Source of the DNA: Sipunculus nudus
Taxonomy: Eukaryota; Annelida; Sipuncula; Golfingiida; Sipunculidae
Assembly: GCA_026874595.1 (NCBI GenBank)
Contig: CM049313.1
Span: 24,486,008-24,550,007, forward strand
Reading direction: 5' to 3'
Length of the DNA stretch: 64,000 nt
A program made the translations under genes and the position numbers. Shown here piece after piece: positions 5,588 through 35,071 of this stretch. The notes below the pieces were generated by a model. It was not told where the DNA came from. It saw nothing but the letters and a program-made list of their open reading frames with translations, and did not search any database. How positions within the stretch are numbered: position 1 is the stretch's first letter; every line of letters begins with the position of its first letter.

Positions 5588-5752
5588 CACAGGCGCTTGA
5601 ATCCCTATTTGTAATAAAGTCTTCATATCCCCAGTGTTCTTAAAAATACTTCGAAAGAATCAGTTAAAAAAAAAACAATAAAAAAAACGGTCATACCATA
5701 CTATCTATTATATTATGACTCAAGGTAGGTAACTCGGCAAAAACCCTTTCGA
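5588..5752 (+). repeat. Left terminal inverted repeat of copy A
   Basis: These 165 bp match the reverse complement of 20188-20353 nearly base for base. The differences lie in the A/T homopolymers and one or two neighbouring bases. The inner boundary is CCCTTTCGA. Confidence 0.93.
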
Positions 5753-5875
5753 CGGCGGCCATTCCAGATAAATTGCCTGATCCCGCACCGAATATTTTTC
5801 CTCCCTGTGATTGGTCTAGGGAGACTTGCGTTCAGAGGTGTCACCGTTACCAGTTGTTTACATAACAAACCGGTC

Positions 5876-5957
5876 CACGTGTGCCTTCGCGATCAGCTGA
5901 TCGTTCGTTCCGCTTCGTTTCCTAGCGGTTGAATCAATTTCTTTGATATTATAAAAG
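5876..5957 (+). promoter_or_regulatory. Putative promoter of the helicase gene, copy A
   Basis: A TATA box, TATAAAAG, lies at 5950-5957. Upstream are the 12-bp palindrome GATCAGCTGATC (5891-5902) and a CACGTG box (5876-5881). The ATG at 6118 is about 160 bp downstream. A strong donor-like site (CGCAG/GTAAGT, about 6065) lies between them, so an untranslated first exon is possible. Copy B has the same elements at 20573-20654. Confidence 0.5.
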
Positions 5958-6117
5958 AAGAAGAGAGTTGCAAACATCCCTTCAAAGAATACCGGACTTT
6001 TGCAAGAAGAAATGTAGATTCATCACTGCTGTCAGATGTCTGCCATTGAATAAGGTAGATCGCAGGTAAGTTTTATGAAACTTTATTTTTTCGTAACACC
6101 ATGTGTTGTGATGCAAG

Positions 6118-9100
6118 ATGGAGCTGAAGCTCAACGATGAGCAGAGGGGGGTGGCTGAAGCCTGTTATTCAGGGCACAGCCTGATTGTCACAGGCCAGTG
6201 TGGCACAGGAAAGACTGTTCTGTTAAGGTCTGTAAACTTTCCATTTAAATATGTGAGCAATTCCAAAAATATAGCATTATCTTAGGGTGGATTATGTGTG
6301 GGCTTATGTACAGGGCTTATGCCTTATCAGTACCATTTGTATGTTGTAAATGTAAATCAACTTTAAAAGTGATTAAGGCCGAGTCAAGGGGCTGAAGTGC
6401 TACCATGGCATACAAAGTGCCCTTAGCTTGGAATGTCCAAGACAGAAAACCTAAGGGCTTGTTATCAAATGACTGTCTGCTCACAAATGGCAGAATGGGC
6501 AGTGAAAGAGGAGGCTCTGTTTGCACAGTTTGATTTACAGTGTGATTACCCATGAGTCTGAAAATAAATGATAAAGCATGTGATAAAATAACATGTTGTG
6601 TTCGGACTATTATGAAGTAAGTTATAAGCATGTCTAGTATTGGAAGAGCTCCATAGTGTTTTCATTCATTGAATGCTTTCATTACATATGTAAAGTACAA
6701 GTAGTATGAATAATTATGCATAATTTGAATAAATGATGTGAATATACACCTGCAGTGTTCAAGATTCCTTTTCTGCAAAGAAAACAATCAGTGGAAATCT
6801 TTAGAAATTGATAACCTGTGTAAGGTACAAGTATATACATGGAACATTAAATGTGACAATGTTATACCTAATAAGTTTTAATTTAAGAAATATATAAAGG
6901 CTTCAGTGTGGAGGCTTCAGTGCTCCAGACTACTCAGATTACTTAACTACTCTGTAAACAGTTTCTAGAAGCCATTTTGCCCTGGGACCTCTGTCCTTCT
7001 GTCCAGCTGGCTGTTAGCAGGGCACAGATCATAACTGTTGGACCTAAAAACCAGTACTCAACATCCAGGGAGGTCCTAGGATTGCTCAAGAGAAACAACA
7101 AAATTTCACTGTGACAGGAGATTTTTTTTTTTTACATTTCATTTTTGTTACCCACTTTCACTCTCCCTCTATCTTTTCTGTATATATATATCACAGGCAC
7201 TTGAATCCCTATCTAAAATAACATCTTTTTTGTAGATAGGAATTCAAGCACCTGTGGGTAATATCTAAACAGATAATATTTGCCTGGTTTGGTGCTAGAA
7301 CATATTGGGAAATGTGCATTCATTCCCTGGAGTGCATATGCCTGAAATATAGAATAAAAATCATTGCAGCAAATTTTTATATGCTTTTTAGTAAGGAGAC
7401 CCAAAAAATAAAATATTGTCAAAACTATACTGATGCCTTTTTACTGTACTGTTAACAGTTAATTAGTGTGGGAAGTGTAATGGCATGAGTCATGTATGAA
7501 CCTATATTCTCTTAATTGGCACAGGCTTGAACTTGCATGACCACAGGAAAGAAAAATACATCAGATGCATCTATAATTATGGTGAATACATGCATGTAAT
7601 CAAAGTAAAATGTTGTACTTTTTGATAAAAACAAACATTATAGCTTATGACTCCTCAGACAAAAAATATTTCATTACAGTGTAAATTTGACCTCTCTGAA
7701 AATGTGGATAAAGCACCGCTTATGTAAACAATCCGGAAGACAATAGACACAAGCAATTTTTTCAGAGGTATGTTTCTTGTAAAGTTTGTGAAATTCACAG
7801 TCTGAGAAACTTTGGCAATTTTCTGCGGGCCTGAGGATTCAATGGCTTCTGTGTCATTGCATTATAAGGCAGAGCTTTTGTTCCAGAATTTGCTTTCCTA
7901 GAAACTGTTGTCTGTCCAAGGACAATTGAATTAATACCAGGACCATACTGTGATACAGTGGGGTTGGTATTCATGCCATTGCACAACCCTCTTTGTTGAC
8001 AAAAAAAATTTTCGATCACACCAGAGTTAAAGAATCCTGGTCTTACTGTGATATTGTCTGCTACCCAACGTTTACATAATTCACTGAAGCCAACTATGCA
8101 TGATTTGATGTCTGAGCGAGTCTCCTTAGTTATCAGATGCTTGGTACTGTCCAGTGAAGGATCTGCCATGACCTGACTCTCCCATTCACTGAAAAAGGTA
8201 AGAACTTTAGACAGTTTGTCTAGCCGTTGATCACCTGCATCAGCTATGGGCCTGTTTGTATCACAGAAAATATCTACAATGATGCTTGTGTTCTCAAGGA
8301 AGGTCAGTGTGCCAGACAATTGGTCTTCAAGCTGATTGGCTTTAGCATATGCCTGCATAAGATACAGCATATTCCGATCCAGGACTTCTAAAGCCAAATG
8401 ATTTCGCATTTTGTTGGTGGGGGTTAGATCCACATGCTGTCTAGTCAACTTATGATGGATGCTCATCGCACTGGTGAAGTTAAATTTAAATGCATCTTCC
8501 TAGTGTTCCCACTGGATTACTTTGTTGTGCCACATCAGAAACCTGCCTTTCTCTTTTTTGTGACTTGCTCTGCTTGATTCTACATTGTTGCGGATCTTTT
8601 TAAGCACATGTTTAGCATCTTGACATAGAGTTATTTTATGGTCCTCATTAAAAATATTTTGGACAGTGAAATTTTGATTCTCTGGATCTGGACACATGGC
8701 ATTTGCACAGGCTCTGTTAGTGGAGGCTCCATCCCACATCACATAATCCACTGTGAATCCCCGCTCCCCAACCTTATCAACTAAGTCCCAGATGATCCAC
8801 AAAAGTTGATGGGCGGTGGCTGTGGTAGAGGCAAAAAAGGCCACTGGCCATCGAAAACCACCTGACCCAACAAAGACACACTGAAGAGCATGTGTTGCCA
8901 TTTTCACTTCCTTCTTTCCAGCGATGACCACCTCAATGTTATTAAGTACAGTTCCCATATCATGGGCACCAATCACTTGCCAACTGTCTCCTTTCTTAAC
9001 AATCTGAATGTCATCCTGTAGAGACATCTCGTCAAGGATGAGACCTCCATGTCTCCCAGCCATGGATATTCCCTGCCTGTTTGCCTCTCCATGCATCCAA

Positions 9101-12100
9101 GAAATCATTTCCATGTTTGCCCCAGGGGTCTGATTTAGACAGTTTTTATAAAAACGCAAAAGTCTGTCTGATGGCAGCACAAGCATCTTGCTTTCCTTCA
9201 GGTCATTGTAGGCTTTGGGTGACCTGCAATATAATGATAAACAAACACTGATCACATCTTTACTCCATCTCCTATAGCGAAGATCTTTATCACAGTCACC
9301 ACTGAATTTCAATTGGTCTTGTAACAGACTGCTGAAAGAATCATATGTTGGTTGTTGAGATGGCTGTATATGTGGTTCCTGGGATGTCCTCTGCTTCTTT
9401 TGATCTTCTTGCTGTTCAATCTCAGCCTCTCTCTTTCTCTTGTTGTAGTATGCAGCATCTCTGAATTTCTTCTGACAAGGCTCACACAAGTTTTTGCCAC
9501 CATGTTTTGAAACCACACTCAAACATTTCTTGGACCACAAATGAACTGCTACACTGTTCTCATCACAAAGTCTGGACCAAGTGTCTGAAATGCAGAAATA
9601 CTCTTTAAGCATATTTCGCATGTCAGACTGAAATCAGTGATCAGACTAAATACCACAAAGCATGTATGTGAATTTCAAAATTGTAAATTGTTCACTTTTT
9701 TTAATCAGAATATTTTCTGGCTATTAACTAACATATCTGATTAAATATCTCAATTTACACCTGCTCTGTATATGTACCAGCAAAATTACCAAGGATCTTT
9801 TGTGTTGTATTTAGAAAGTAGAGCTTAAGCTACCATTTTGCTTCCAAAATGTCTTCATTTTCAAAGTGAAGGGGCATATACCATTCTAAAGAGCCCAACA
9901 AGGTGCAGCCTGCACCTGCCCCTCATAACCAGCCTTAATAATTAAGCCTGCAACTGCCTGTCATGTAGTTCCAAAACTTCCCTACCCACAACTATATAGA
10001 AAAAAACTTGCCCCATAAGGCCAAAAAACATAAAAGGTATGGTTCTCAGGCACTGCCCACATCAATTTCAAACCTCTGCATAAAAAATTGTTTTTACATG
10101 AAATGGGCAGAAGAATGTAGTCATTGTCTATTTCATGCAATGGGCAAATACCATTGAGGTGTAATATATATACCGATATGTATATAGTAAGTGTTTTCCT
10201 CACCAAAATTTAAAAGCTGCATGGGTCTCCTGATGGTAGGAATAAACATGTGACAGGAGAAATTTAAATCGCAGTAGATAGTATTTTTTTCTGTTGAAGA
10301 TAGGTAAAAACTGTAGAAATGGATAGAAATAGATTCTGCCATAAGCTTTAAGATTTTAGCCTGATATTTAAGAAAAGGCCTTTAGTTTTCTGTGAGCAAT
10401 TTTACTGCAATATAGGCAAATTATGAATGACAGAGAGAAAGAAGAACAGGTAAATATGAAAATTACAAAAAAATCCAGGAGTATACTGGGAAATAGTAAT
10501 TGAAAATACCATGTCATATCTTTGCTTATAGGTCTACAAAGTTATTTTTCCCAGTACATACTTTTGATGCAATATCAGTGTTAACCTGCTAATCAGCTAA
10601 AGCAGAGGGTTGCTGGAACAATATAAACTATTTAAGACTTATATCTGATTGTCTGGCTAGCTGGTATCACCCCAGGCGCTTGAATCTCTATTTATATCAA
10701 AGTCTATATCTTTTAATACTACGATGGAATCAGGTCATACGACCCAATAATAAAAAAATTATACTGAGTTATCACTTGTTATATAATACAAGTGATAGCA
10801 CGTTATGACTATTTTATTATAGGGGCGTAGTATTTCTAAGAATATTAGTGATATGAAGACTTTATTATAAATAGGGATTCAAGCACCTGTGTTATCACAG
10901 TCAGTGTGAATTTCGTAAGTACATCAGAAGGTTTGTTACATTAAAGCATTCCAGAAGCCTTTCTAGCTAGATGTAGCCATTAAGTGGCCAAAACTAGATC
11001 AAAGGTAATCTTGCTGGTGCTCAACTCAAAGGTATATGTAACTCTAAGGCATATATTTAACTCTAAGGCATATATGTAACTCTAAGGCATGTATGTATAG
11101 TAGGAGGCCTGAGCAGAGAGACCTCATCTGTTTTGACCGATTTATTTTAGTTTCTGATTAATAATTTTCTACTGAACTTTATTAATGAACAAAAATAGGA
11201 CTTATATTATGGATGAGATATGTGTTTAAACAAATCATTCTTAAAAATGCAACCCACCCACCCTGCACATCTAAGCTTTCTCCCACACCCACAATGCAGT
11301 TAAAAAAAAAATATGGTCTGCACCCCTGGCAAAATCATTTAAAATTGTTCCATTGGGGTGGGGGGGGGGGGGGCTTGCAGGGTGTTGTAGCAGAGGGTCC
11401 CCACAACCCTCTGTGTTAAGGCCAATGCAGGGCTTAAATACCCAGCCTCAGTTAATAACTAATGTCTAATCTTAAATGTTCTACAGGTAATTACCCATCC
11501 TTAATTTATAACAATTTATGTGATATTAATGTATTACCTTTGACAGTGCAGCTAGGAATGTGGCTTCCATTATTATGAAGGACACCCTCACACAGGGGAA
11601 TGGCTTGAACCATCCTGATAATGCCATCAAGGTGGTGTTGGTTTAAAGCTGTCAATGGTGAAATGCCATACTTTTGTAGGTCCAACGTACGAGTTACCTT
11701 TGTTCCAATCAGGTGTTTGACAGTTAGTGTTTTTCCTGATATAGAGATTTTAAAGGAGACATGTTTGCTTCCCATGATTATACCAAGAGGAAGCAAGAGT
11801 GACAAACATCCTGGCTCTTCTGATACTGCAGTGCAGAATTCAGGTACTTTAATTGAACATGCAGCATATCCATGATCAACTGGCAGAGATCTCCTGAGGC
11901 CAAGACCTTTATAGTGTACACATCTTGAACCTTGTTTCATAGGCTTCTCCCAGGTCCAATTCTTGAATAGCCTCTTTATACATATACCAATGGTGGCCTT
12001 GTTTGCAGGTACCTGGATCCCATTGCTGATACAGTAATGCTGGTATTCCTCATACAGGTCATTAATTGGCAGACTGCAGTTGATATTCTCTTCAACATTG

Positions 12101-15100
12101 TACACCAACCTGGGAATATGAAATATTTTTTTCAGAGAAATTATCTTGACTTAAACATAATATTTGTAAATGCTGTGCTCCATTTCTTATATATTGTACT
12201 AGTGTTAATTAATACCTAGGAATGGGGCACAGCATGGGAATGAATTGCTTAATATATATTAAAGGAATAAAAGGGTGTGGTTCATCTCAAAATATGTAGT
12301 ATTAAATTTTAATGTACATGTATATGCAGTTCATCATGTTCAGTACAGATCTGTAAAAAATTTTGCCCAAATGTAATCAGTGCTTTCTCTCATATTTGTA
12401 GGAAGGTAGTTCATCTTCTAAGAGAGAAGCCAAAAAGTAAGGTGGTTGCAATAACTGGCACAACAGGCATGGCAAGCTTGAACTATGATGGGGGCACAAC
12501 TATACACCACTGGATGGGCTTAGGCGATGGGAGGCACAGCAATCAGGAACTAGCAACCAGTATACTCAAAGAAGACAGATATTTAGAAGTTCGTACCCGT
12601 ATCAGGTCTTGCCATGTTCTTATTATTGATGAGATTGGAATGATGAGTAAAAAGCTGTTTGATCAAGCAGAATATGTATGCAGGATTGTCAGACAAAGTG
12701 ATGCAGTATTTGGTGGTCTGCAAGTCATTGGGGCTGGAGATTTCAGGCAACTCGCCCCAGTACCGAATCGAAGATATGGTGATGATGGTGACTATTGCTT
12801 CAAATCTGCTATGTTCCTGAAAACCTTTCCTCATCGATTTCACCTAACACAGGTTGGTTTACTAATTCACACCAAATTCCATCTGCACTGAATAAATTTA
12901 ACTTTGACAATGTAAGGCATATAAACATCCCCCTATCACCAAGTACTGAAATATAGCATCCTGTCAACCTTATGTTGTTTTTTATCATGATGTCATAATA
13001 ATTTTTCAGTTGTGTCATATTTTTGGATAGTTAACTGTAATTTGGTTCTAAGGCATAGTCCCAATGTAAAAAATAATTTATACATGTTTTATAAATGACA
13101 TTTCATTTTCTTATATTCTAATCTCATTTAAGGCTGCTCCAATTTATATATGTCAATGATCTGAACTTGTACACTGTAACTCTTTATGTATAGGTTTTAC
13201 GCCAACAGGAACAAGATCTGTCCTCAGCAGTCCATGAACTTTGTGTGGGACAACCATCTCCTAAGACAGAGGCCCTGTTGAAAAGCCTTGACAGACCATT
13301 ACCACCTGAGCTGGAAGTCATACAGTAAGTTAATATAGTAAAATTGACAGAAGGGAACTTTTCTTTTAAATTCACTGTGAATTCCTAATTTAGTAGGGTT
13401 GGAGATGGATGGGAACATTTTTAAAATCTTTTTAATCAAGTTTCAGATTGATTCTACTACTAACAGCTGACAGTCATGTCACAATTAAATTTTTTACACA
13501 TCTATCTGACTTTTGATAATAAAATGGACACAGAGTATATATGTCATTATTCATTATTCATACTGGAGGGCTTTAATGTTGATGTTTAATTAGCTAAATG
13601 AGTCACATTTTTTTGTTCATCATTATTACACAAGTTTAAGAGTGCCAACATTTATGTGAGAGGACCTATTTCTGAATGATTAATGCATGGATTGCCTTGA
13701 AATTTGTCATAAATGTTAATCTCTGATATCTTTCTAGATCATACCAGACTGACAAAACCTTCAAATGCATTATTTTCATGCAACTGGTTATTTTAAGCCT
13801 GGCAAATAGCAGTCATATTACATTATTTATTTATGCACTCTAATTTTGCTCTGGACTATCAACTCATATTTGCTTTAATCTGATATATATATATGCCTAT
13901 CATCCTGCACAGTTTCAAACATAAGGGCAAATAATTTCATAAAAATATGTTTAATAGTTTTGAATGTTAGGCTCAAAATTTGACAGGCCATACACGTCAG
14001 TTGAGCCTCTTGGCCAATTGTTCATTTGATCATAATTGTATTCATCTCAGAGATTCTCATGGTCTTCTCTTTTACATATTTGTTTAGATTACTTGGTACA
14101 AGATTCGAGGTAGATTTTATAAATCACATCAAGCTGCAGGGAGCAGAGGGCCATGTAAGGATGTACAAAGCAGAAGATACTGGTAAACTGAATTTGTTTT
14201 TTTGAGGAAGCCCCTTTTATCAGAGTCAATTGACATTCAAATTTCTGTCCGGTAGTATTGTTGCCACAACATCCATTCACATGTTTATACATACTGACAT
14301 TTTTTATATATAATGAGTTACTATTAAAGTTCATTCTTAGTGTATATTACTGAAATAATACTGATAATAATTAGATGAGTATACTAGTAATAATGAACAA
14401 TTCATTGCCTGTGTAAACTTCATGAAAATGTTGTATTGCAGTGATGTGTGCAAGAATGTATGCCAGATTAATAGCATGTTTTAATTTTTGGTTTTTAGTA
14501 TTTTGAATGATCTATTTCCAGGGAATGTACGGCAGCTATGTGGATGCACAGCTGAGAGGTATCTGCAACTTAAGCCAGGATGTCCAATAATTCTGTTGAA
14601 GAATCTGTATGGTAATCTGTGTAATGGCTTACGTGGAGTGGTTCAGGACTGCACAGAAACAGGGCCAACTGTCAACTTTGGAGGGAAATTGGTAACTCTA
14701 AAAAAATCAAAATTTCAGATCTGCAGCCAAGGTGGTCAGATACTTGCTGAGAGAAAACAGTATCCCATAAAGCTGGCATATGCTCTCACAGTACACCGTG
14801 CTCAGGGCCAGACTATACAACATCTGACTGTTGACTGTCATGGTTTTTTCAAAGCTGGTCAGTTAGGAGTGGCTGTTGGAAGAGCCATGACTAAGGAAGG
14901 GCTGCAAATATGTAATTACAATGCTGAAGTAGCCAGACTTAAGCACCCACCAGATGTAGATGCCTTCTATTTTGAGCCCACCCTGCCATTGTCTAACACA
15001 TTGGCAAACTGCTGTCAGCTACCTTCAGAGAAGAAAGAAATTAAAAAAAGTGTGAGTGTTTCACCAGCTGACAGTAACAACACAGAATCTGATGACTCAA

Positions 15101-16648
15101 GTGACTCACAAATAGAACCTCTTTATATGATGTCTGACATTCCAGAATTTACACATAATTGTTTTTTTTGTCTTGAGGCAGTGATACCACAAAAGGCAGA
15201 AACTGAGGAGCAAATTGCTCTGTGCAAGGCTGCAACTTATCTCAAACAGCATGGCCAGAACTTAGATGCCTTTCTTGCCTTGTCCATGGAAAAATGCAGG
15301 ACATTACTGGAAATACATGGAGGTGATAAAAAAAAACAGGTCCTGGTTAAAGTTCCTAGCAGCAGTCAATCAGTATCTAGTGAGTGATGACTATTTTGAG
15401 GTGCGGCAGAAATTGTTCCAGAAAGCTGAATTGGTTCCAGCAGAGAAAAAGATAAGTTCTAGGCTTGTTCTGCACTGTGTGCACCTTCTAACTGAAGAGA
15501 AAGCAGAAAGTATCATTAAGGAACAGGAAGACAAAGCTGTTCAACAAATGGTAGAACTAGATGTGACCACAATCCAACAAACTGTCAAGACCAAAATTCG
15601 ATATTTGGCAGGTGTATGTATTGCCAGGATTATTCAGATGTTAAGGTCAGCTATCCAAAATAAGGTCCACTGTGCAAGAAGCTATCTACTTATTCAGGCA
15701 CTCTATAAAAGACTTAACATTTTAAGTGTTCTCAGGATTCCAGAGGCACAAATTATTGCTGATACCAAAGTACCTGAAAGCCTTGAGGAAATTACCTGGA
15801 AGCAAGGAGACACAAGGGGCCTCTGTCATGTCAGTGACCAAGTGTACTACTTCTTTCTGTCTCTGCATTCCAGTTTGGCACCAATGCTTACACCAGAGTT
15901 TTTTCATTTGCATTTACATTCAATGCATGCATTTCTGAGACGAAACATTCATAAAGATCAAGAGCTAAAGGACAGGTGGTTCATGTTGTTTCAAAAAGAT
16001 GAATGTCCTGAAGCAAATGAAGAGTGGTTCAGCCTCAAGGAGTCCTGTTTACTTGATCTCTTTGAGATGATAAGTGACCATTTCATAAAGATTGTCTTGG
16101 CAGACAATTTGAAAATCCTGAAAGAGACATTGCCAAAAGTGAAAAAGCTTGCACTGAGAGCCTCTCTTCACACTAGCAGTAAAAAGGCAAAAGAGTTAGC
16201 TACGGCTAGTATTTCAAAGCAGACTGAAGATGTAGATGAAAAACCACAGAAAACATCCAGCAGAAAGAGGAAAAGAAAAACTGAAGCAGTAGTTGAAGCA
16301 GACACCAGACCGGTAAGTCCATCACAAAGAGGATCTCGAAGCAAGCAGAAAGGCAGAAAACAAAGTCAGTCATGTGACAAAGAAGCAGAATCTGAGGGGG
16401 CTGGAGGAAGTGAAGTCTTCCCATGTGGTGTCTGTGATGATCCCTGTGTGGATGAACCAGAAACAACAGCTGAGTGCAGCATGGAATGTGATGGTTGCCA
16501 GGTTTGGTGCCACTATGGGTGTGTAGGTATCAAAGGCAAGCTTGTGCAACGCAAATGGTTTTGTCCAGTTTGTGTTGAAGCAGGAGTAGGCAAGAATGTG
16601 TCAAAGAGGGGCAAAGGTCAAGGAAAAACTTCTAAAAAAAGATTGTGA
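6118..16648 (+). CDS. Pif1-like SF1 DNA helicase with C-terminal PHD finger, 5 exons (copy A)
   Basis: Exons inferred from GT/AG sites that keep phase: 6118-6227, 12402-12852, 13194-13324, 14088-14182, 14522-16648. Exon 1 gives Walker A GQCGTGKT (residues 26-33). Exon 2 gives DEIGM (113-117) and GDFRQLAPV (about 149). Exon 5 gives TVHRAQGQT (about 352) and GVAVGRAM with the arginine finger near 383. These are the Pif1/RecD2-type helicase motifs in order, so an ATP-driven 5'-3' DNA helicase is expected. A frame break lies in a run of nine A (15328-15336, about codon 531): the upstream frame stops at 15387, while the downstream frame continues to 16648. The downstream part has a basic Lys/Arg stretch, likely a nuclear signal, and a PHD finger (C-x2-C, C-x2-C, H-x2-C, C-x2-C) at about residues 892-945. 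Total about 970 residues if read through. A donor-like ACCG/GTAAGT at about 16313 could allow alternative splicing. Intron 1 contains the minus-strand genes. Confidence 0.8.
7192..7256. mobile_element. 65-bp minimal inverted-repeat relative of the transposon (copy A)
   Basis: CACAGGCACTTGAATCCCT at the left and its near-complement ending AAGCACCTGTG at the right face each other with almost no interior. The ends match the giant element's termini. No target duplication is visible (the flanks are a TATA run and GGTAATA). It is present at the same place in copy B (21916-21980), so it predates their separation. Confidence 0.75.
7795..9621 (-). pseudogene. P-element/THAP9-type transposase, interrupted by one stop (copy A)
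   Basis: Same protein as 22519-24345 in copy B, but codon 374 (Trp in B, in 'QWEHWED') is TAG here, at about 8500-8502. It divides the frame into 8500-9621 (373 codons) and 7795-8466. Upstream of the stop are the first two acidic sites (LILDEMS, DGASTN) and the 'DAKHVLKKIRNN' block. The last acidic site (VIENFF) lies downstream, so a truncated product would lack the full catalytic set. It also carries D534G next to that glutamate. Otherwise it is nearly identical to B, so the inactivation is recent. Readthrough or a sequencing error cannot be excluded. Confidence 0.85.
10671..10891. mobile_element. 221-bp MITE of the same transposon family, nested in copy A
   Basis: Begins CCCAGGCGCTTGAATC and ends GGGATTCAAGCACCTGTG, with terminal repeats extending inward to 'TACTACG/CGTAGTA'. 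Flanked by GTATCAC (10664-10670) and TTATCAC (10892-10898), a 7-bp duplication with one mismatch. The inner TIR resembles the giant element's TIR (TATTTRTA..AAGTCTTCATATC). The equivalent in copy B is 25395-25615. Confidence 0.85.
11506..12109 (-). CDS. ORF with RFX-like winged-helix segment, probably an exon (copy A)
   Basis: A 200-codon frame. Residues ~17-70 read 'DLYEEYQHYCISNGI', 'PANKATIGICIKRLF' and 'HYKGLGLRR', which follow the order of an RFX-type DNA-binding winged helix (also used as the C-terminal domain of some viral and plasmid primase-helicases). It lies inside helicase intron 1 on the opposite strand. The 5' edge has an acceptor-like ATTCCCAG/GTTGG at 12109. A donor AAAG/GTAATA at 11538 would end the exon after 572 bp. 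If the donor is skipped, the frame ends at a stop at 11506. Its out-phase (1) does not fit an acceptor just upstream of the transposase ATG (phase 0), so I do not join the two. Function is inferred as DNA binding only. The copy B counterpart has one visible change (GLGL to GFGL). Confidence 0.55.
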
Positions 16649-18515
16649 TACCCATTGAAATATCTGGTCATTTGTTTCTGTCCAGGGATTGTGGTGAACT
16701 TGTGCACCTGAGTTGTGCTAAGTAGTTTTGTTAATATTTGAAGGGGTTTGATTATATTTTGCAGATTTATATTATTTCAGATTTTACAGATTACTTATAT
16801 GCAGAGTAGAACACTTTATTTTTTTATAAGGTAAATCATTTTTATTAGAAATGTGAGGATTCTTGTCTCTGTGAAAAGGAATGCACAGTATTAAGAGATT
16901 TACGTTTTGTATTCAAATGCGAGCAGACCTGGAGTATTAGTAGGAAAGTTGTCCAGCATCCATCATCTGTCGTTCGTATGTTAACCCATACTATTTAAAA
17001 AAAACAGTATCACCAATGTTTATGCCAATGTTGGTCACATGAGTCATATTTGAAATTGAGGTCTTGGTGGCGCCATCTGCATTTACCTTTTCTGTCCTGG
17101 GGTTATTGGTCATCAGTACGTTAACCCATGATTGCTCAAGAATAGCAGGAGCTAGCATCCCAAAATTTTACGCAAAAGTCAGTCACACATCAAATGTTGT
17201 GGGATTAAGCATTTTGTGGCACCACCTGCATAGCCTTACATTATATTGTGAAAAAACTTGGAAACTTTTGAAAATCTTCTCAGAAATCATTTAGCCAAAT
17301 TGTTTAGTATTAAACAGAAATGATCCCAGAGATGAGCTTTCTCAAGTGTGTTCAAATGGTTTAGGTTAAATGAATTTTGGCCAAGTTGCAGGAATTTGAA
17401 CTTTGTCATTTGGCCAAGTAAACACATTAACATAACAATAACAGAAATGACAGGAGCTACCATCACTAAGTTTAATGTAAATGTTGGTCACATGACCCAT
17501 ATTTGCAATTGTGGTTTTTGTGGCACATTGACCTGTTTTTTATGGGCAAAAAAACTCATAATTTTAGCCGCTTTCAGCTTAAAAAATGTTTTATGTTAAA
17601 ACCATAATGCTGAATGGTTTAATTTTTCATGAGAATTATCCTAGGGTGGGGTTCTATCAGTTGTATAAGAATGGATTGGGTTAATTGATTTTGGTAGAGT
17701 CACAGAAAGCTAAAGTTGGTCTTGTGGCCATAAGTAAGCCAATTTCACACTGAGTGCTGCAAAAGATGTTGTTTAAACATATGTAACACTGGATGAACAT
17801 TATTCCTAGGTTGCCTTTGTTTGAGTTTACTAAAATTATTTATATCATTATTGTACCTTTAACAATGAAAGGATTGTGAGATTTACAAAGCTAGTACATT
17901 TATTGTGTTAACAAACCAAGCTCTTTGGGTATATAAGCAAAGCTGTACAGGTGACATAAATAATTGGTGCCCATATCCAGCTTACATGTAAGATATATCT
18001 GTATTCTGATTTTATTTTTAATAGGCATCTGTTATTATTCTAAACATTTGATAAAAAATCTTATGAATATGCAGCTTAAAAAAAGCATTGTAGCCAAATT
18101 AAGTCCTCAGTATGTATGATCAAATTAGGCAATATGGCAAAGTTTCATTCTTGGAACTGTTTACAGCTTTGGCAGACTGCCATCTGTAACATATTATTCA
18201 ACAGGTCTAGAGTTTACTCTGTACAGCCAGGTACAGGTCAAGAGTTCATTCAGTGCTGTAGTGTCATCTTTGATGGCTTTCTCATAAACAAGACTGGTAT
18301 CGCCACCTACATTGATTTTAGCATAGTGTATGTACCTACTTATTCCTCAGACTGGATTTTATTTATCAGCCTGAAACTGTGCATATCTATACATAACAAA
18401 TATACAAGAATAGTGGCACCACTTAGAAAAATGTTTGCTCAGAGTATGTGCCTGCTTATTTCACAGGAGGGATTTGATATATCACCCTGAATTAATGTAA
18501 ATAATTCAGTAAATT
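16649..18515 (+). other. Non-coding 3' region of copy A with degenerate repeats
   Basis: No gene is seen. Three loosely similar blocks (about 17020-17110, 17140-17240 and 17450-17550) share 'TTTATGCCAATGTTGGTCACATG' type text followed by a GTGGCGCCAT / GTGGCACCACC / GTGGCACATTG core, recalling the palindromic core of the flanking repeat arrays. Short open frames here look incidental. Confidence 0.55.
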
Positions 18516-24345: not shown

Positions 24346-25394
24346 GTCAGACTGAAATCAGTGATCAGACTAAATACCACAAAGCATGTATGTGAATTTC
24401 AAAATTGTAAATTGTTCACTTTTTTTAATCAGAATATTTTCTGGCTATTAACTAACATATCTGATTAAATATCTCAATTTACACCTGCTCTGTATATGTA
24501 CCAGCAAAATTACCAAGGATCTTTTGTGTTGTATTTAGAAAGTAGAGCTTAAGCTGCCATTTTGCTTCCAAAATGTCTTCATTTTCAAAGTGAAGGGGCA
24601 TATACCATTCTAAAGAGCCCAACAAGGTGCAGCCTGCACCTGCCCCTCATAACCAGCCTTAATAATTAAGCCTGCAACTGCCTGTCATGTAGTTCCAAAA
24701 CTTCCCTACCCACAACTATATAGAAAAAAACTTGCCCCATAAGGCCAAAAAACATAAAAGGTATGGTTCTCAGGCACTGCCCACATCAATTTCAAACCTC
24801 TGCATAAAAAATTGTTTTTACATGAAATGGGCAGAAGAATGTAGTCATTGTCTATTTCATGCAATGGGCAAATACCATTGAGGTGTAATATATATACCGA
24901 TATGTATATAGTAAGTGTTTTCCTCACCAAAATTTAAAAGCTGCATGGGTCTCCTGATGGTAGGAATAAACATGTGACAGGAGAAATTTAAATCGCAGTA
25001 GATAGTATTTTTTTCTGTTGAAGATAGGTAAAAACTGTAGAAATGGATAGAAATAGATTCTGCCATAAGCTTTAAGATTTTAGCCTGATATTTAAGAAAA
25101 GGCCTTTAGTTTTCTGTGAGCAATTTTACTGCAATATAGGCAAATTATGAATGACAGAGAGAAAGAAGAACAGGTAAATATGAAAATTACAAAAAAATCC
25201 AGGAGTATACTGGGAAATAGTAATTGAAAATACCATGTCATATCTTTGCTTATAGGTCTACAAAGTTATTTTTCCCAGTACATACTTTTGATGCAATATC
25301 AGTGTTAACCTGCTAATCAGCTAAAGCAGAGGGTTGCTGGAACAATATAAACTATTTAAGACTTATATCTGATTGTCTGGCTAGCTGGTATCAC

Positions 25395-25615
25395 CAAAGG
25401 CGCTTGAATCTCTATTTATAATCAAGTCTATATCTTTTAATACTACGATGGAATCAGGTCATACGACCCAATAATAAAAAAATTATACTGAGTTATCACT
25501 TGTTATATAATACAAGTGATAGCACGTTATGACTATTTTATTATAGGGGCGTAGTATTTCTAAGAATATTAGTGATATGAAGACTTTATTATAAATAGGG
25601 ATTCAAGCACCTGTG
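25395..25615. mobile_element. 221-bp MITE of the same family, nested in copy B
   Basis: Begins CAAAGGCGCTTGAATC and ends GGATTCAAGCACCTGTG. Flanks are GTATCAC (25388-25394) and TTATCAC (25616-25622). Same insertion as 10671-10891. Confidence 0.85.
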
Positions 25616-26226
25616 TTATCACAGTCAGTGTGAATTTCGTAAGTACATCAGAAGGTTTGTTACATTAAAGCATTCCAGAAGCCTTTCTAGCTAGATGTAG
25701 CCATTAAGTGGCCAAAACTAGATCAAAGGTAATCTTGCTGGTGCTCAACTCAAAGGTATATGTAACTCTAAGGCATATATTTAACTCTAAGGCATATATG
25801 TAACTCTAAGGCATGTATGTATAGTAGGAGGCCTGAGCAGAGAGACCTCATCTGTTTTGACCGATTTATTTTAGTTTCTGATTAATAATTTTCTACTGAA
25901 CTTTATTAATGAACAAAAATAGGACTTATATTATGGATGAGATATGTGTTTAAACAAATCATTCTTAAAAATGCAACCCACCCACCCTGCACATCTAAGC
26001 TTTCTCCCACACCCACAATGCAGTTAAAAAAAACAATATGGTCTGCACCCCTGGCAAAATCATTTAAAATTGTTCCATTGGGGTGGGGGGGGGGCTTGCA
26101 GGGTGTTGTAGCAGAGGGTCCCCACAACCCTCTGTGTTAAGGCCAATGCAGGGCTTAAATACCCAGCCTCAGTTAATAACTAATGTCTAATCTTAAATGT
26201 TCTACAGGTAATTACCCATCCTTAAT

Positions 26227-26830
26227 TTATAACAATTTATGTGATATTAATGTATTACCTTTGACAGTGCAGCTAGGAATGTGGCTTCCATTATTATGAA
26301 GGACACCCTCACACAGGGGAATGGCTTGAACCATCCTGATAATGCCATCAAGGTGGTGTTGGTTTAAAGCTGTCAATGGTGAAATGCCATACTTTTGTAG
26401 GTCCAACGTACGAGTTACCTTTGTTCCAATCAGGTGTTTGACAGTTAGTGTTTTTCCTGATATAGAGATTTTAAAGGAGACATGTTTGCTTCCCATGATT
26501 ATACCAAGAGGAAGCAAGAGTGACAAACATCCTGGCTCTTCTGATACTGCAGTGCAGAATTCAGGTACTTTAATTGAACATGCAGCATATCCATGATCAA
26601 CTGGCAGAGATCTCCTGAGGCCAAAACCTTTATAGTGTACACATCTTGAACCTTGTTTCATAGGCTTCTCCCAGGTCCAATTCTTGAATAGCCTCTTTAT
26701 ACATATACCAATGGTGGCCTTGTTTGCAGGTACCTGGATCCCATTGCTGATACAGTAATGCTGGTATTCCTCATACAGGTCATTAATTGGCAGACTGCAG
26801 TTGATATTCTCTTCAACATTGTACACCAAC
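26227..26830 (-). CDS. ORF with RFX-like winged-helix segment, probably an exon (copy B)
   Basis: Counterpart of 11506-12109: same 200-codon frame, acceptor-like edge at 26830 and donor-like AAAG/GTAATA at 26259. One visible replacement (GLGL to GFGL) lies in the RFX-like segment. Frame integrity in both copies, despite damage to their neighbours, supports a real coding segment, but the copies are so similar that this is weak evidence of selection. Confidence 0.55.
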
Positions 26831-29800
26831 CTGGGAATATGAAATATTTTTTTCAGAGAAATTATCTTGACTTAAACATAATATTTGTAAATGCTGTGCT
26901 CCATTTCTTATATATTGTACTAGTGTTAATTAATACCTAGGAATGGGGCACAGCATGGGAATGAATTGCTTAATATATATTAAAGGAATAAAAGGGTGTG
27001 GTTCATCTCAAAATATGTAGTATTAAATTTTAATGTACATGTATATGCAGTTCATCATGTTCAGTACAGATCTGTAAAAAATTTTGCCCAAATGTAATCA
27101 GTGCTTTCTCTCATATTTGTAGGAAGGTAGTTCATCTTCTAAGAGAGAAGCCAAAAAGTAAGGTGGTTGCAATAACTGGCACAACAGGCATGGCAAGCTT
27201 GAACTATGATGGGGGCACAACTATACACCACTGGATGGGCTTAGGCGATGGGAGGCACAGCAATCAGGAACTAGCAACCAGTATACTCAAAGAAGACAGA
27301 TATTTAGAAGTTCGTACCCGTATCAGGTCTTGCCATGTTCTTATTATTGATGAGATTGGAATGATGAGTAAAAAGCTGTTTGATCAAGCAGAATATGTAT
27401 GCAGGATTGTCAGACAAAGTGATGCAGTATTTGGTGGTCTGCAAGTCATTGGGGCTGGAGATTTCAGGCAACTCGCCCCAGTACCGAATCGAAGATATGG
27501 TGATGATGGTGACTATTGCTTCAAATCTGCTATGTTCCTGAAAACCTTTCCTCATCGATTTCACCTAACACAGGTTGGTTTACTAATTCACACCAAATTC
27601 CATCTGCACTGAATAAATTTAACTTTGACAATGTAAGGCATATAAACATCCCCCTATCACCAAGTACTGAAATATAGCATCCTGTCAACCTTATGTTGTT
27701 TTTTATCATGATGTCATAATAATTTTTCAGTTGTGTCATATTTTTGGATAGTTAACTGTAATTTGGTTCTAAGGCATAGTCCCAATGTAAAAAATAATTT
27801 ATACATGTTTTATAAATGACATTTCATTTTCTTATATTCTAATCTCATTTAAGGCTGCTCCAATTTATATATGTCAATGATCTGAACTTGTACACTGTAA
27901 CTCTTTATGTATAGGTTTTACGCCAACAGGAACAAGATCTGTCCTCAGCAGTCCATGAACTTTGTGTGGGACAACCATCTCCTAAGACAGAGGCCCTGTT
28001 GAAAAGCCTTGACAGACCATTACCACCTGAGCTGGAAGTCATACAGTAAGTTAATATAGTAAAATTGACAAGAGGGAACTTTTCTTTTAAATTCACTGTG
28101 AATTCCTAATTTAGTAGGGTTGGAGATGGATGGGAACATTTTTAAAATCTTTTTAATCAAGTTTCAGATTGATTCTACTACTAACAGCTGACAGTCATGT
28201 CACAATTAAATTTTTTACACATCTATCTGACTTTTGATAATAAAATGGACACAGAGTATATATGTCATTATTCATTATTCATACTGGAGGGCTTTAATGT
28301 TGATGTTTAATTAGCTAAATGAGTCACATTTTTTTGTTCATCATTATTACACAAGTTTAAGAGTGCCAACATTTATGTGAGAGGACCTATTTCTGAATGA
28401 TTAATGCATGGATTGCCTTGAAATTTGTCATAAATGCTAATCTCTGATATCTTTCTAGATCATACCAGACTGACAAAACCTTCAAATGCATTATTTTCAT
28501 GCAACTGGTTATTTTAAGCCTGGCAAATAGCAGTCATATTACATTATTTATTTATGCACTCTAATTTTGCTCTGGACTATCAACTCATATTTGCTTTAAT
28601 CTGATATATATATATGCCTATCATCCTGCACAGTTTCAAACATAAGGGCAAATAATTTCATAAAAATATGTTTAATAGTTTTGAATGTTAGGCTCAAAAT
28701 TTGACAGGCCATACACGTCAGTTGAGCCTCTTGGCCCATTGTTCATTTGATCATAATTGTATTCATCTCAGAGATTCTCATGGTCTTCTCTTTTACATAT
28801 TTGTTTAGATTACTTGGTACAAGATTCGAGGTAGATTTTATAAATCACATCAAGCTGCAGGGAGCAGAGGGCCATGTAAGGATGTACAAAGCAGAAGATA
28901 CTGGTAAACTGAATTTGTTTTTTTGAGGAAGCCCCTTTTATCAGAGTCAATTGACATTCAAATTTCTGTCCGGTAGTATTGTTGCCACAACATCCATTCA
29001 CATGTTTATACATACTGACATTTTTTATATATAATGAGTTACTATTAAAGTTCATTCTTAGTGTATATTACTGAAATAATACTGATAATAATTAGATGAG
29101 TATACTAGTAATAATGAACAATTCATTGCCTGTGTAAACTTCATGAAAATGTTGTATTGCAGTGATGTGTGCAAGAATGTATGCCAGATTAATAGCATGT
29201 TTTAATTTTTGGTTTTTAGTATTTTGAATGATCTATTTCCAGGGAATGTACGGCAGCTATGTGGATGCACAGCTGAGAGGTATCTGCAACTTAAGCCAGG
29301 ATGTCCAATAATTCTGTTGAAGAATCTGTATGGTAATCTGTGTAATGGCTTACGTGGAGTGGTTCAGGACTGCACAGAAACAGGGCCAACTGTCAACTTT
29401 GGAGGGAAATTGGTAACTCTAAAAAAATCAAAATTTCAGATCTGCAGCCAAGGTGGTCAGATACTTGCTGAGAGAAAACAGTATCCCATAAAGCTGGCAT
29501 ATGCTCTCACAGTACACCGTGCTCAGGGCCAGACTATACAACATCTGACTGTTGACTGTCATGGTTTTTTCAAAGCTGGTCAGTTAGGAGTGGCTGTTGG
29601 AAGAGCCATGACTAAGGAAGGGCTGCAAATATGTAATTACAATGCTGAAGTAGCCAGACTTAAGCACCCACCAGATGTAGATGCCTTCTATTTTGAGCCC
29701 ACCCTGCCATTGTCTAACACATTGGCAAACTGCTGTCAGCTACCTTCAGAGAAGAAATAAATTAAAAAAAGTGTGAGTGTTTCACCAGCTGACAGTAACA

Positions 29801-31369
29801 ACACAGAATCTGATGACTCAAGTGACTCACAAATAGAACCTCTTTATATGATGTCTGACATTCCAGAATTTACACATAATTGTTTTTTTTGTCTTGAGGC
29901 AGTGATACCACAAAAGGCAGAAACTGAGGAGCAAATTGCTCTGTGCAAGGCTGCAACTTATCTCAAACAGCATGGCCAGAACTTAGATGCCTTTCTTGCC
30001 TTGTCCATGGAAAAATGCAGGACATTACTGGAAATACATGGAGGTGATAAAAAAAAACAGGTCCTGGTTAAAGTTCCTAGCAGCAGTCAATCAGTATCTA
30101 GTGAGTGATGACTATTTTGAGGTGCGGCAGAAATTGTTCCAGAAAGCTGAATTGGTTCCAGCAGAGAAAAAGATAAGTTCTAGGCTTGTTCTGCACTGTG
30201 TGCACCTTCTAACTGAAGAGAAAGCAGAAAGTATCATTAAGGAACAGGAAGACAAAGCTGTTCAACAAATGGTAGAACTAGATGTGACCACAATCCAACA
30301 AACTGTCAAGACCAAAATTCGATATTTGGCAGGTGTATGTATTGCCAGGATTATTCAGATGTTAAGGTCAGCTATCCAAAATAAGGTCCACTGTGCAAGA
30401 AGCTATCTACTTATTCAGGCACTCTATAAAAGACTTAACATTTTAAGTGTTCTCAGGATTCCAGAGGCACAAATTATTGCTGATACCAAAGTACCTGAAA
30501 GCCTTGAGGAAATTACCTGGAAGCAAGGAGACACAAGGGGCCTCTGTCATGTCAGTGACCAAGTGTACTACTTCTTTCTGTCTCTGCATTCCAGTTTGGC
30601 ACCAATGCTTACACCAGAGTTTTTTCATTTGCATTTACATTCAATGCATGCATTTCTGAGACGAAACATTCATAAAGATCAAGAGCTAAAGGACAGGTGG
30701 TTCATGTTGTTTCAAAAAGATGAATGTCCTGAAGCAAATGAAGAGTGGTTCAGCCTCAAGGAGTCCTGTTTACTTGATCTCTTTGAGATGATAAGTGACC
30801 ATTTCATAAAGATTGTCTTGGCAGACAATTTGAAAATCCTGAAAGAGACATTGCCAAAAGTGAAAAAGCTTGCACTGAGAGCCTCTCTTCACACTAGCAG
30901 TAAAAAGGCAAAAGAGTTAGCTACGGCTAGTATTTCAAAGCAGACTGAAGATGTAGATGAAAAACCACAGAAAACATCCAGCAGAAAGAGGAAAAGAAAA
31001 ACTGAAGCAGTAGTTGAAGCAGACACCAGACCGGTAAGTCCATCACAAAGAGGATCTCGAAGCAAGCAGAAAGGCAGAAAACAAAGTCAGTCATGTGACA
31101 AAGAAGCAGAATCTGAGGGGGCTGGAGGAAGTGAAGTCTTCCCATGTGGTGTCTGTGATGATCCCTGTGTGGATGAACCAGAAACAACAGCTGAGTGCAG
31201 CATGGAATGTGATGGTTGCCAGGTTTGGTGCCACTATGGGTGTGTAGGTATCAAAGGCAAGCTTGTGCAACGCAAATGGTTTTGTCCAGTTTGTGTTGAA
31301 GCAGGAGTAGGCAAGAATGTGTCAAAGAGGGGCAAAGGTCAAGGAAAAACTTCTAAAAAAAGATTGTGA

Positions 31370-33236
31370 TACCCATTGAAATATCTAGTCATTTGTTTCT
31401 GTCCAGGGATTGTGGTGAACTTGTGCACCTGAGTTGTGCTAAGTAGTTTTGTTAATATTTGAAGGGGTTTGATTATATTTTGCAGATTTATATTATTTCA
31501 GATTTTACAGATTACTTATATGCAGAGTAGAACACTTTATTTTTTTATAAGGTAAATCATTTTTATTAGAAATGTGAGGATTCTTGTCTCTGTGAAAAGG
31601 AATGCACAGTATTAAGAGATTTACGTTTTGTATTCAAATGCGAGCAGACCTGGAGTATTAGTAGGAAAGTTGTCCAGCATCCATCATCTGTCGTTCGTAT
31701 GTTAACCCATACTATTTAAAAAAAACAGTATCACCAATGTTTATGCCAATGTTGGTCACATGAGTCATATTTGAAATTGAGGTCTTGGTGGCGCCATCTG
31801 CATTGACCTTTTCTGTCCTGGGGTTATTGGTCATCAGTACGTTAACCCATGATTGCTCAAGAATAGCAGGAGCTAGCATCCCAAAATTTTACGCAAAAGT
31901 CAGTCACACATCAAATGTTGTGGGATTAAGCATTTTGTGGCACCACCTGCATAGCCTTACATTATATTGTGAAAAAACTTGGAAACTTTTGAAAATCTTC
32001 TCAGAAATCATTTAGCCAAATTGTTTAGTATTAAACAGAAATGATCCCAGAGATGAGCTTTCTCAAGTGTGTTCAAATGGTTTAGGTTAAATGAATTTTG
32101 GCCAAGTTGCAGGAATTTGAACTTTGTCATTTGGCCAAGTAAACACATTAACATAACAATAACAGAAATGACAGGAGCTACCATCACTAAGTTTAATGTA
32201 AATGTTGGTCACATGACCCATATTTGCAATTGTGGTTTTTGTGGCACATTGACCTGTTTTTTATGGGCAAAAAAACTCATAATTTTAGCCGCTTTCAGCT
32301 TAAAAAATGTTTTATGTTAAAACCATAATGCTGAATGGTTTAATTTTTCATGAGAATTATCCTAGGGTGGGGTTCTATCAGTTGTATAAGAATGGATTGG
32401 GTTAATTGATTTTGGTAGAGTCACAGAAAGCTAAAGTTGGTCTTGTGGCCATAAGTAAGCCAATTTCACACTGAGTGCTGCAAAAGATGTTGTTTAAACA
32501 TATGTAACACTGGATGAACATTATTCCTAGGTTGCCTTTGTTTGAGTTTACTAAAATTATTTATATCATTATTGTACCTTTAACAATGAAAGGATTGTGA
32601 GATTTACAAAGCTAGTACATTTATTGTGTTAACAAACCAAGCTCTTTGGGTATATAAGCAAAGCTGTACAGGTGACATAAATAATTGGTGCCCATATCCA
32701 GCTTACATGTAAGATATATCTGTATTCTGATTTTATTTTTAATAGGCATCTGTTATTATTCTAAACATTTGATAAAAAATCTTATGAATATGCAGCTTAA
32801 AAAAAGCATTGTAGCCAAATTAAGTCCTCAGTATGTATGATCAAATTAGGCAATATGGCAAAGTTTCATTCTTGGAACTGTTTACAGCTTTGGCAGACTG
32901 CCATCTGTAACATATTATTCAACAGGTCTAGAGTTTACTCTGTACAGCCAGGTACAGGTCAAGAGTTCATTCAGTGCTGTAGTGTCATCTTTGATGGCTT
33001 TCTCATAAACAAGACTGGTATCGCCACCTACATTGATTTTAGCATAGTGTATGTACCTACTTATTCCTCAGACTGGATTTTATTTATCAGCCTGAAACTG
33101 TGCATATCTATACATAACAAATATACAAGAATAGTGGCACCACTTAGAAAAATGTTTGCTCAGAGTATGTGCCTGCTTATTTCACAGGAGGGATTTGATA
33201 TATCACCCTGAATTAATGTAAATAATTCAGTAAATT
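31370..33236 (+). other. Non-coding 3' region of copy B with degenerate repeats
   Basis: Counterpart of 16649-18515, with the same three GGTGGCGCCAT-like blocks and no recognised gene. Confidence 0.55.
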
Positions 33237-33800
33237 TTAATTCATTATGGTAGGTTGACATATATATTACATGTTTTGTAAGCAGAACAAATTCTATGTT
33301 CCAAGTCAATATAATTAATCTGTTTTATTTAATTATATTTGTAATTAATGCTGTGATGAGAATCAGGTTTTGATAGCATGTGTTTCATCCCAATTTAGTC
33401 AGCCTGAAATCATTAAAATTATCAGTAAAGATTAATTCATTATGGTAGGTTGACAAATATATATACCATGTTTTGTATTGCAGAACAGATTCCATGTTCC
33501 AAGTCAATATAATTAATCAGTATTATTTAATTATATTTGTCATTAATGTTGTGATGAGAATCAGGTTTTGATTGCATGTGTGTTCCATCCCAATTTTTTC
33601 AGCCTGAAACTGTTTGAATCATGCCAGTAAAGTTTAATTCATTATGGTAGTTTGACAAGTATATTCCATGTTGTGTATTGTTGAACAGAATCTATGTTCA
33701 AAGTCAATATAATTTATCAGTATTGTTTAATTATATTTGTAATTAATGTTGTGATGAGGATCAGGTTTTGATAGCATGCGTGTTCCATCCAAGTTTAGTA
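33237..33800 (+). repeat. Three-unit ~200-bp tandem repeat (copy B)
   Basis: Units begin TTAATTCATTATGGTAG at 33237, 33432 and 33634, matching copy A's array. Confidence 0.88.
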
Positions 33801-34628
33801 GCTGGGTGCTAAATTTTACATTTTATTGTAAGTAAACTTCACTAGCACATTTAAAATAAATAAAACAAGGTGTCATATTAATTTCTCTTAATTATCTCAA
33901 CTAGAACTAAGTGTTATGGTTTTTATGCATTTGTCCAGACAAATAATTTTATCGGTTCAATAAAACCTTCACTGGAATAAAAGTACTAGTACAATACTTA
34001 TTGCTTTTTTAAACCAGTTTAAATTACACTGATTACTCTAATATATATGTTTCAAATAAATATATGTGAACTGTGATTTAAACATTGATTTTTTATGATA
34101 TTCTGCCTTTTTACCACTGTAAGCAACATTGGAAGTCTTTCCTGATGTGAACCATTTTTTATGTATTCTAATGTAATGTTATCAGTTAGGAACAATATTA
34201 TTCAAGCACTTGTACAAGTACAATCCTTCCATACGTTATTGAAGAATGTGACAGAAAAAATAGCTGTTGGAATAAGTAATGGACATGACAACTGTATATA
34301 AGGATTTTTCTCATTAGATATTTACCATGACAATATTTCTGTACCAGCACAAGACATTTCTTCTGAGAATATTTCGCCTAAATCGACCTTTTTCTTCAAA
34401 CTGAGTGTGTTCTATCACAGGCGCTTTAAAATAAAACAACGGTTTTTTGCACCATGTGCCTTTGTTTACGTTTTTGTTTTTAGTCAGATAAATGTTTATA
34501 TTTCGACTTTGTTGATTATTTTAGCAATAAATCCGTCAAATGTTCATCTTAACCCTATATGTGATTTAATTTTTTTTATTTGTGCTGTTTGTGTTAAATG
34601 TAAACATTTATTTGTACAACATTTTCAA

Positions 34629-34689
34629 CCAATGGCAACATGGGTCACGTAAGGTCATACCACTGCGGATCACTTACGTGTCAACCAAT
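34629..34689. promoter_or_regulatory. CCAAT / CACGTAAG dyad near the right end (copy B)
   Basis: Same arrangement as 19912-19972, with dyad arms at 34646-34653 and 34673-34680. Confidence 0.4.
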
Positions 34690-34966
34690 GCCGCTTCCCC
34701 CACCGTTTGGAATGGACGACGTCGAAATTCAGACATCACTGCAAAACGTTATCCTGGAAGCTTGTATTGATGGTTGAAAACATTGGATATTGGATGGATT
34801 TGATTCTGTAACTCCCGGAGTATTGAACGGTCATATGGATTACGCAGAAAAAGAAGATAAAGCGAGTATAAGCGGGTCGAGACCGTTACTTGCCTTATTA
34901 TCGCTCGAAAGGGTTTTTGCCGAGTTACCTACCTTGAGTCATAATATAATAGATAGTATGGTATGA
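34688..34966 (+). pseudogene. Short ORF running into the right TIR, with one stop (copy B)
   Basis: Counterpart of 19971-20249 with the same internal TGA and one visible replacement (Q to H just after the stop). No recognised family. Confidence 0.3.
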
Positions 34967-35071
34967 CCTTTTTTTTTTTATTGTTTTTTTTTTAACTGAT
35001 TCTTTCGAAGTATTTTTAAGAACACTGGGGATATGAAGACTTTATTACAAATAGGGATTCAAGCGCCTGTG
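34905..35071 (-). repeat. Right terminal inverted repeat of copy B
   Basis: 167 bp ending GGATTCAAGCGCCTGTG. Its left partner in copy B is reduced to CACAGGCG (20447-20454). Confidence 0.92.

Follow-up and report, generated by a model that had tools for sequence, protein, structure and literature searches.

A probable P-superfamily transposon of about 15 kb in Sipunculus nudus that combines an RFX-type transposase with a PIF1/PHD-like helicase

Structure of the two copies in the window

We analysed a 64,000-bp stretch of the Sipunculus nudus genome (the window; assembly GCA_026874595.1, contig CM049313.1, positions 24,486,008 to 24,550,007), which holds two direct copies of one unit, 93 bp apart; the two-copy region spans exactly positions 5588–35071. 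Each copy carries a P-type transposase gene that includes an exon for an RFX-type winged helix and, on the opposite strand, a gene for a PIF1 helicase with a PHD-like finger. From its sequence, we read the unit as very probably an autonomous-type cut-and-paste DNA transposon that represents a separate clade of the P superfamily.

Copy 1 (5588–20353; 14,766 bp) keeps both of its terminal inverted repeats (TIRs), the left one of 165 bp (5588–5752, plus strand), beginning CACAGGCGCTTGAA, and the right one of 166 bp (20188–20353, minus strand), which are 98.8% identical to each other. It is flanked by the target-site duplication CTGGGTC at 5581–5587 and 20354–20360 (plus strand). Copy 2 (20447–35071) has lost its left TIR except for 8 bp, CACAGGCG, fused via a common GGCG to the post-TIR sequence, and retains the right TIR (34905–35071, minus strand). 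As CACACTG is present on both of its flanks (20440–20446 and 35072–35078, plus strand), copy 2 inserted on its own and did not arise by tandem duplication. The two copies are 99.5% identical across 14,632 bp, and their alignment of 14,631 columns contains 27 substitutions and 41 gap columns. The original prediction had claimed an element present twice, with 7-bp duplications and TIRs of about 165 bp. The first two claims hold, and duplications of 7 bp were seen again elsewhere in the genome; the TIRs were found at both ends of copy 1 and at one end of copy 2, and are missing from the left end of copy 2.

Nested in the transposase intron we observed a 221-bp miniature inverted-repeat transposable element (MITE; 10671–10891 in copy 1 and 25395–25615 in copy 2), which has the same terminal sequence as the element and is flanked by GTATCAC and TTATCAC (6/7 match). 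A 65-bp MITE-like remnant with this terminal sequence is located at 7192–7256 (21916–21980 in copy 2), and no duplication was seen at its flanks. The unit could also be viewed as a composite of two P elements with a common inner TIR (10826–10891). We rejected this view, since the inner TIR is part of the 221-bp MITE, which begins at 10671 with a left end of its own and has flanks that nearly duplicate each other. Both copies contain, in their non-coding right part, a tandem array of ∼2.9 units of 200 bp (18506–19078 and 33227–33799), which is present in the deleted derivatives (see below) as well.

The catalytic exon of the transposase is on the minus strand, at 7795–9584 in copy 1, where it has one internal TAG stop, and at 22519–24308 in copy 2, where it is open throughout and gives an open reading frame (ORF) of 608 aa. 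According to our reading of a profile alignment to 6p5a, D197, D297, D335 and E537 align with D230, D303, D339 and E531 of the P transposase DmTNP, and D335 has the context D-A-K-H, aligned with the [C/D](2)H signature at D339; these signature residues are described in PMC8230255. The four residues are those for which a P/THAP9 motif order had been proposed. From the GTP contacts listed for the P transposase in PMC7776569, K385, D444 and D528 are kept in the same alignment by our reading, and the other contacts differ. The GTP-binding insertion domain, PF21788, scored above its cut-off in the homologues P0008, P0011 and P0144, and was unlisted for the window protein. The RNase H-fold transposase was found to be nearest to DmTNP, with Hermes and Transib ranking lower in the fold-match list.

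The RFX winged-helix exon (11538–12109 in copy 1 and 26259–26830 in copy 2, minus strand) is an internal exon of the transposase gene. The Pfam domain RFX_DNA_binding scored 33.8 bits in this exon, above its cut-off of 27. The exon (12109–11538) has an acceptor and a donor (AAAG at the exon end, followed by GTAATA), and the catalytic exon begins at 9584 after TTTCAG. When joined, the two exons gave 786 residues, with no stop in copy 2 and one in copy 1. We searched for homologues of this joined protein and obtained 22, and several predicted homologues, among them P0003, P0008, P0009 and P0010, cover 92–98% of it. In an alignment of 26 homologues, the RFX region is covered by 25 residues or more in 19, and all of these except P0007 and P0020 continue across the RFX/catalytic junction, as judged by eye. 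An N-terminal profile, from which the window protein and P0013 were left out, retrieved RFX5 at E 0.02; RFX5 ranked second, behind one designed repeat protein whose score was scattered over weak repeats. The predicted fold of a relative also has an N-terminal RFX-type winged helix (1dp7, 8zjr), so that sequence and modelled fold both point to an RFX DNA-binding domain. A structural comparison with P/THAP9 had been proposed as a way to assess the family, and the model of this relative matched both the P transposase and the RFX domain. At one further locus, L159 on C15 (C-numbers are contigs of the searched genome of 1.43 Gb and 153 contigs, L-numbers are stretches extracted from it), the RFX match and the catalytic domain lie within one stop-to-stop ORF in genomic DNA. 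No THAP match was listed for the window proteins (E up to 0.1), 20 homologues or L159 (E up to 1).

The helicase gene of copy 1 consists of five exons on the plus strand: exon 1 with Walker A (6118–6227), exon 2 with Walker B and motif III (12402–12852), exon 3 (13194–13324), exon 4 (14088–14182), and exon 5 with the 2B domain, motifs V/VI, the middle domain and the PHD-like finger (14522–16648). The gene in copy 2 (20814–31369, plus strand) has five exons like those of copy 1. Intron 1 (6228–12401) encloses the known transposase exons on the opposite strand, and the splice joins are consistent with an alignment to Saccostrea P0023. We found both the PIF1 core (PF05970, E 2.5e-32) and the 2B domain (PF21530, E 3.1e-7). 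In an alignment of 16 helicases at E 0.01, PIF1 was matched in 14, Pif1_2B in 16 and PHD in 11, and the helicase profile matched PIF1 structures in the PDB at E 3.5e-106 and the Helitron Helraiser at E 2.6e-33. The original prediction of a spliced helicase with a PHD finger stands for PIF1, which is above the cut-off. The PHD match in the window scored 18.0 bits, below the Pfam cut-off of 24 (18.1 bits in L159), and PHD was unlisted at E 0.01 for the joined window helicase; we assign this finger from the alignment with its relatives and from the PDB matches of their profile, which include PHD fingers that read H3K4. No Rep domain was listed for the helicase, the model of which starts at the PIF1 domain. 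In viral contigs, the helicase profile had 115 confirmed matches, and the best 80 of the 115 extended at most to about residue 459 of 971, covering the helicase core only.

Further copies and linkage of the two genes in the genome

The TIR search of the genome gave at least 59 matches. A third near-full copy of 14,103 bp is present on C1, with ATTCGAC on both flanks. Its 608-aa transposase ORF is open and 100% identical, and helicase exon 5 is uninterrupted; ∼680 bp are gone after the first 121 bp, leaving only 121 bp of the left TIR. Further full-length elements with the same termini, 7-bp duplications and both genes had been named as support for the original prediction, and we found such an element on C3 (C3:37351023–37366799; 15,777 bp), of which the ends and part of the interior were read. 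It begins CACAGGCGCTTGAATCGC, has the same terminal bases, and lies between two copies of GTCGAGA. Its TIRs of 168 bp are 100% identical to each other, and they match the window TIR clearly in the first 25 bp only (96%). The transposase frame is open and 61% identical to that of the window; the helicase frame is also open (761 aa) and 48% identical across the matched part. The identical 168-bp TIRs suggest that the C3 element was likely active recently.

Five internally deleted elements (L111–L114 and L116), 4.5–9.1 kb in length, retain helicase exon 1 at the left end and 3.0–3.4 kb at the right end, and we observed no transposase match in them. In the shared right part, L111 diverges from the three long copies by ∼1% and L112, L113, L114 and L116 by ∼3%. 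Two left ends on C5 (C5:23039998 and C5:23047456), 7.5 kb apart, have the same flank, CATGGGTCACGA; the second belongs to the complete deleted element L116, which suggests a local duplication of flank and element. The nine MITEs examined measure 243–264 bp. Among 16 stretches, 14 contain both insertion ends (only one end is in the stretch for L115 and L117), and 12 of these have exact 7-bp and 2 have exact 8-bp duplications. Together with copies 1 and 2, the C1 copy, the C3 element and the two nested MITEs (6/7 match and none, respectively), exact 7-bp duplications were observed in 16/20 insertions and exact 8-bp duplications in 2/20.

Next to these close copies, we measured how often the two genes occur together in divergent relatives. 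For the transposase ORF we obtained 75 matches in the genome, merged to 45 loci, and for the 460-residue C-terminus of the helicase 27. Nine of the latter cover the PHD finger only, and all nine lie more than 12 kb away from any transposase match. The remaining 18 correspond to 16 loci; at 12 of these a transposase match lies within 12 kb, a distance that takes in ∼0.08% of the genome. Linkage was observed for the two window copies and C1, which are one element, and for C3, C6, C9 (broken), C15:37.48, C2:79.84, C10, C16, C8:5.07 and C2:86.67 Mb. C2:79.84 and C10 are perhaps copies of one element, being alike in their figures, and the same may be true of C16 and C8:5.07. In the far group, the identities go down to 36–42% for the transposase and 21–30% for the helicase. 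Judged by strand and order, the near group has its two genes back to back, like the window copies, and the far group has them tail to tail.

Long helicase frames are open at C15 (965 aa), C2 (991 aa) and C16 (976 aa), besides that of C3. From tblastn on the extracted loci, we observed that L132 (C3) repeats the window's order of transposase, RFX exon (38%) and helicase exon 2 (67%), and that the RFX exon is present in L133 and L134. In L159, a 798-aa transposase ORF has an RFX match at its start (E 0.001, below the cut-off), and the 965-aa ORF has Pif1 2B above and PHD below the cut-off; no long terminal inverted repeat was recognised in this stretch. Broken transposase fragments of the RFX/P clade are densely clustered within ∼1 Mb on the same contig (C15 ∼58.3–59.4 Mb).

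Those transposase homologues that come from named animals are all from molluscs, and one further name is a Sedimenticola metagenome-assembled genome. Its records P0046 and P0159 are PIF1-like and P-transposase-like proteins of these families, which probably represent host DNA in the symbiont bin. In the viral and prokaryotic contig collections, the transposase profile had 0 confirmed matches and the TIR pattern 0 matches.

The window also contains other repeats. A satellite of ∼338 bp per unit forms arrays at 1–2912 and 60056–62042, and two inverted units of it are located at 47002–47498. An inverted repeat at 43535–44096, with 107-bp arms that are 90% complementary and 348 bp apart, lies in a region of higher GC and is perhaps another MITE. 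A minisatellite with a 14-bp unit occupies 4321–4468.

Placement within the P superfamily and comparison with known systems

The proposal of a large P-superfamily lineage with a PIF1/PHD helicase is supported by these data. The P core, together with a search for an N-terminal THAP domain that found none, places the element in the P superfamily but outside its classical P/THAP9 members, and the TIRs with 7- or 8-bp target duplications agree with this superfamily. With the Drosophila P element and THAP9 (Pdre2 of zebrafish), it has in common the catalytic core, the D-D-E plus D339 motif and the internally deleted derivatives. However, an RFX-type winged helix stands in place of their THAP domain, the size is ∼15 kb compared with 2.9 kb for the P element, and a second gene, the helicase, is present. 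The TIRs measure 165–168 bp here, whereas those of P and Pdre2 measure 31 and 13 bp, and the duplications are mostly of 7 bp instead of the 8 bp of P (both PMC7776569, PMC10983969). The 7-bp duplications had been set against the 8-bp ones of classical P elements. They are no departure from the P superfamily, as Galileo, a P-superfamily element of Drosophila, makes mostly 7-bp and few 8-bp duplications, and also resembles our element in its long TIRs and many non-autonomous copies (PMC4168063). It differs in having a THAP domain (PMC3688188), and no helicase is mentioned in the part of PMC4168063 available to us, whereas the window element has one.

A cut-and-paste transposon with a gained helicase is also found in KolobokH and AcademH (PMC9587614, PMC10799480), and one Kolobok carries its helicase on the complementary strand, as described in PMC9587614. 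However, these belong to other transposase superfamilies, while the transposase here is P-type and not of the Kolobok or Academ kind, and the KolobokH helicase is a RecQ and not a PIF1 enzyme (PMC9587614). Helitrons likewise carry a PIF1-family helicase in a eukaryotic transposon, but they have neither TIRs nor target duplications, both of which the window element has, and their helicase is fused to an HUH Rep, which we did not find here. Moreover, the window helicase profile is closer to PIF1 structures than to Helraiser, and the protein has a PHD-like finger. RFX transcription factors contain the same type of winged-helix DNA-binding domain (1dp7, 8zjr), but here the domain is fused to a transposase, and the element is not enriched in X-boxes. 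Among the titles and abstract openings listed in our literature search (in one case the first 12 of 637; Repbase and subscription papers were outside it), none shows a helicase or an RFX domain in an element of the P superfamily. Helicase-bearing cut-and-paste transposons were thus already known, and what is new, within the literature searched, is a P-superfamily element with a PIF1/PHD helicase and an RFX domain.

Possible mechanism, alternatives and significance

At the level of sequence, the above results establish the mobility of the whole unit, the gene structure, the catalytic core, the domain types and the recurrent pairing of the two genes. We propose that the RFX winged helix would tether the transposase to the element ends, and that the catalytic core would cut and insert with a mostly 7-bp stagger; the P transposase cuts via its DDE RNase H core with GTP (PMC7776569). 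The helicase might aid strand processing at the ends or, which we regard as likelier, the long templated repair synthesis that would restore the 15-kb element at the donor gap, and its PHD finger may bind histone H3 tails. The gap that a P element leaves at its donor site is filled by templated repair, which gives internal deletions when it fails, and PIF1 in yeast drives long-tract synthesis by D-loop migration; a PIF1 partner could thus allow a 15-kb donor gap to be restored. The deletions in L111–L114, L116, the C1 copy and copy 2 are compatible with failed repair, although they would be expected without a helicase too. A strict need for the helicase in cis is opposed by the deleted elements and MITEs, which moved, presumably in trans. 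We give slightly less than even chances to a wider reading in which an old animal P clade exchanged its THAP domain for an RFX winged helix and became a two-protein system, whose PIF1–PHD helicase works in transposition or copy restoration and lets ∼15-kb elements persist.

Several observations weigh against our main reading of the element. In both window copies the reading frame of helicase exon 5 changes at a homopolymer (near 15330), and copy 2 has an extra stop in this exon at ∼29758–29760; the copy 1 transposase is damaged by its stop, the start exon of the transposase was not found in the window gene, and the C1 copy is without helicase exon 1. RFX sequence similarity is weak in most relatives, with a sub-threshold match in 2 of the 20 homologues scanned (P0013 and P0152). 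The X-box of RFX is not enriched in the element, which has 1 site at one mismatch vs 1.4 expected and 17 at two mismatches vs 23.7 expected from 10 mononucleotide shuffles. As for the linkage, four of the 16 helicase loci (C7:80.70, C2:80.41, C15:58.59 and C15:59.18 Mb) have no transposase match within 12 kb, the match at C15:58.59 Mb being mostly to the PHD part, and 33/45 transposase loci, many of them fragments, are without a helicase match. The 12 linked loci include repeats, and so amount to ∼8 lineages, and the helicase matches at C16 (E 1.7e-4) and C8:5.07 (E 3.7e-4) are weak. In other species, helicase and transposase matches, compared by eye, lie on contigs of equal length (8,980,177) in Haliotis rufescens, and, among the best 120 of 350 helicase matches, no such pairing was found in Tegillarca, Mytilus trossulus, M. 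coruscus, M. edulis or Pinctada.

The helicase could instead be a passenger that plays no part in transposition and was acquired by capture, either from the host or from a different transposon. Its broken state in both window copies and the lack of exon 1 on C1 would fit this, as would the spread of deleted derivatives that have 7- or 8-bp duplications and no helicase, as if the transposase alone suffices in trans. However, linkage at 12/16 loci, down to the low identities of the far group and in two gene arrangements, is unlike a recent capture, and the long open frames at C3, C15, C2 and C16 persist; we therefore regard a passenger as unlikely. The RFX-like ORF had originally been taken as separate cargo, for which its own ORF and the 2-kb intron before the catalytic exon might speak. 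While the RFX assignment itself was upheld by Pfam, a separate gene is very improbable: splice sites and phase join both exons without a stop, homologous predicted proteins align across the junction, L159 has both parts in a single stop-to-stop ORF, and the predicted fold of a relative places the domain at the N-terminus. Judged by these sequence features, the RFX ORF is part of the transposase.

An overlap of two unrelated elements, in which a P-type transposon inserted into an intron of a helicase-bearing element or host gene, would account for transposase exons lying entirely within helicase intron 1. This is even less credible than a separate RFX gene, because the transposase has no TIR pair of its own (the inner pairs found belong to the 221-bp MITE and the 65-bp remnant), the entire unit is enclosed by the outer TIRs in copy 1, the C3 element and the C1 copy (where the left TIR is reduced to its first 121 bp), and helicase exon 1 is at the left end of the five deleted copies. 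We consider it least probable of all, to a vanishing degree, that the transposase derives from another RNase H-core DDE superfamily such as hAT or Transib; Hermes and Transib do appear in the fold list, at lower ranks.

Few eukaryotic transposons have been studied as closely as the P element, which binds DNA through its THAP finger. A clade that uses another module indicates that the DNA-binding part may be exchangeable, and that transposons could be a source, or a sink, for RFX-type domains. That a helicase has stayed with the transposase across deep divergence suggests that cut-and-paste elements of large size may depend on assistance which the host provides to small ones, and the likely recent activity of the C3 element would make the system testable in cells.

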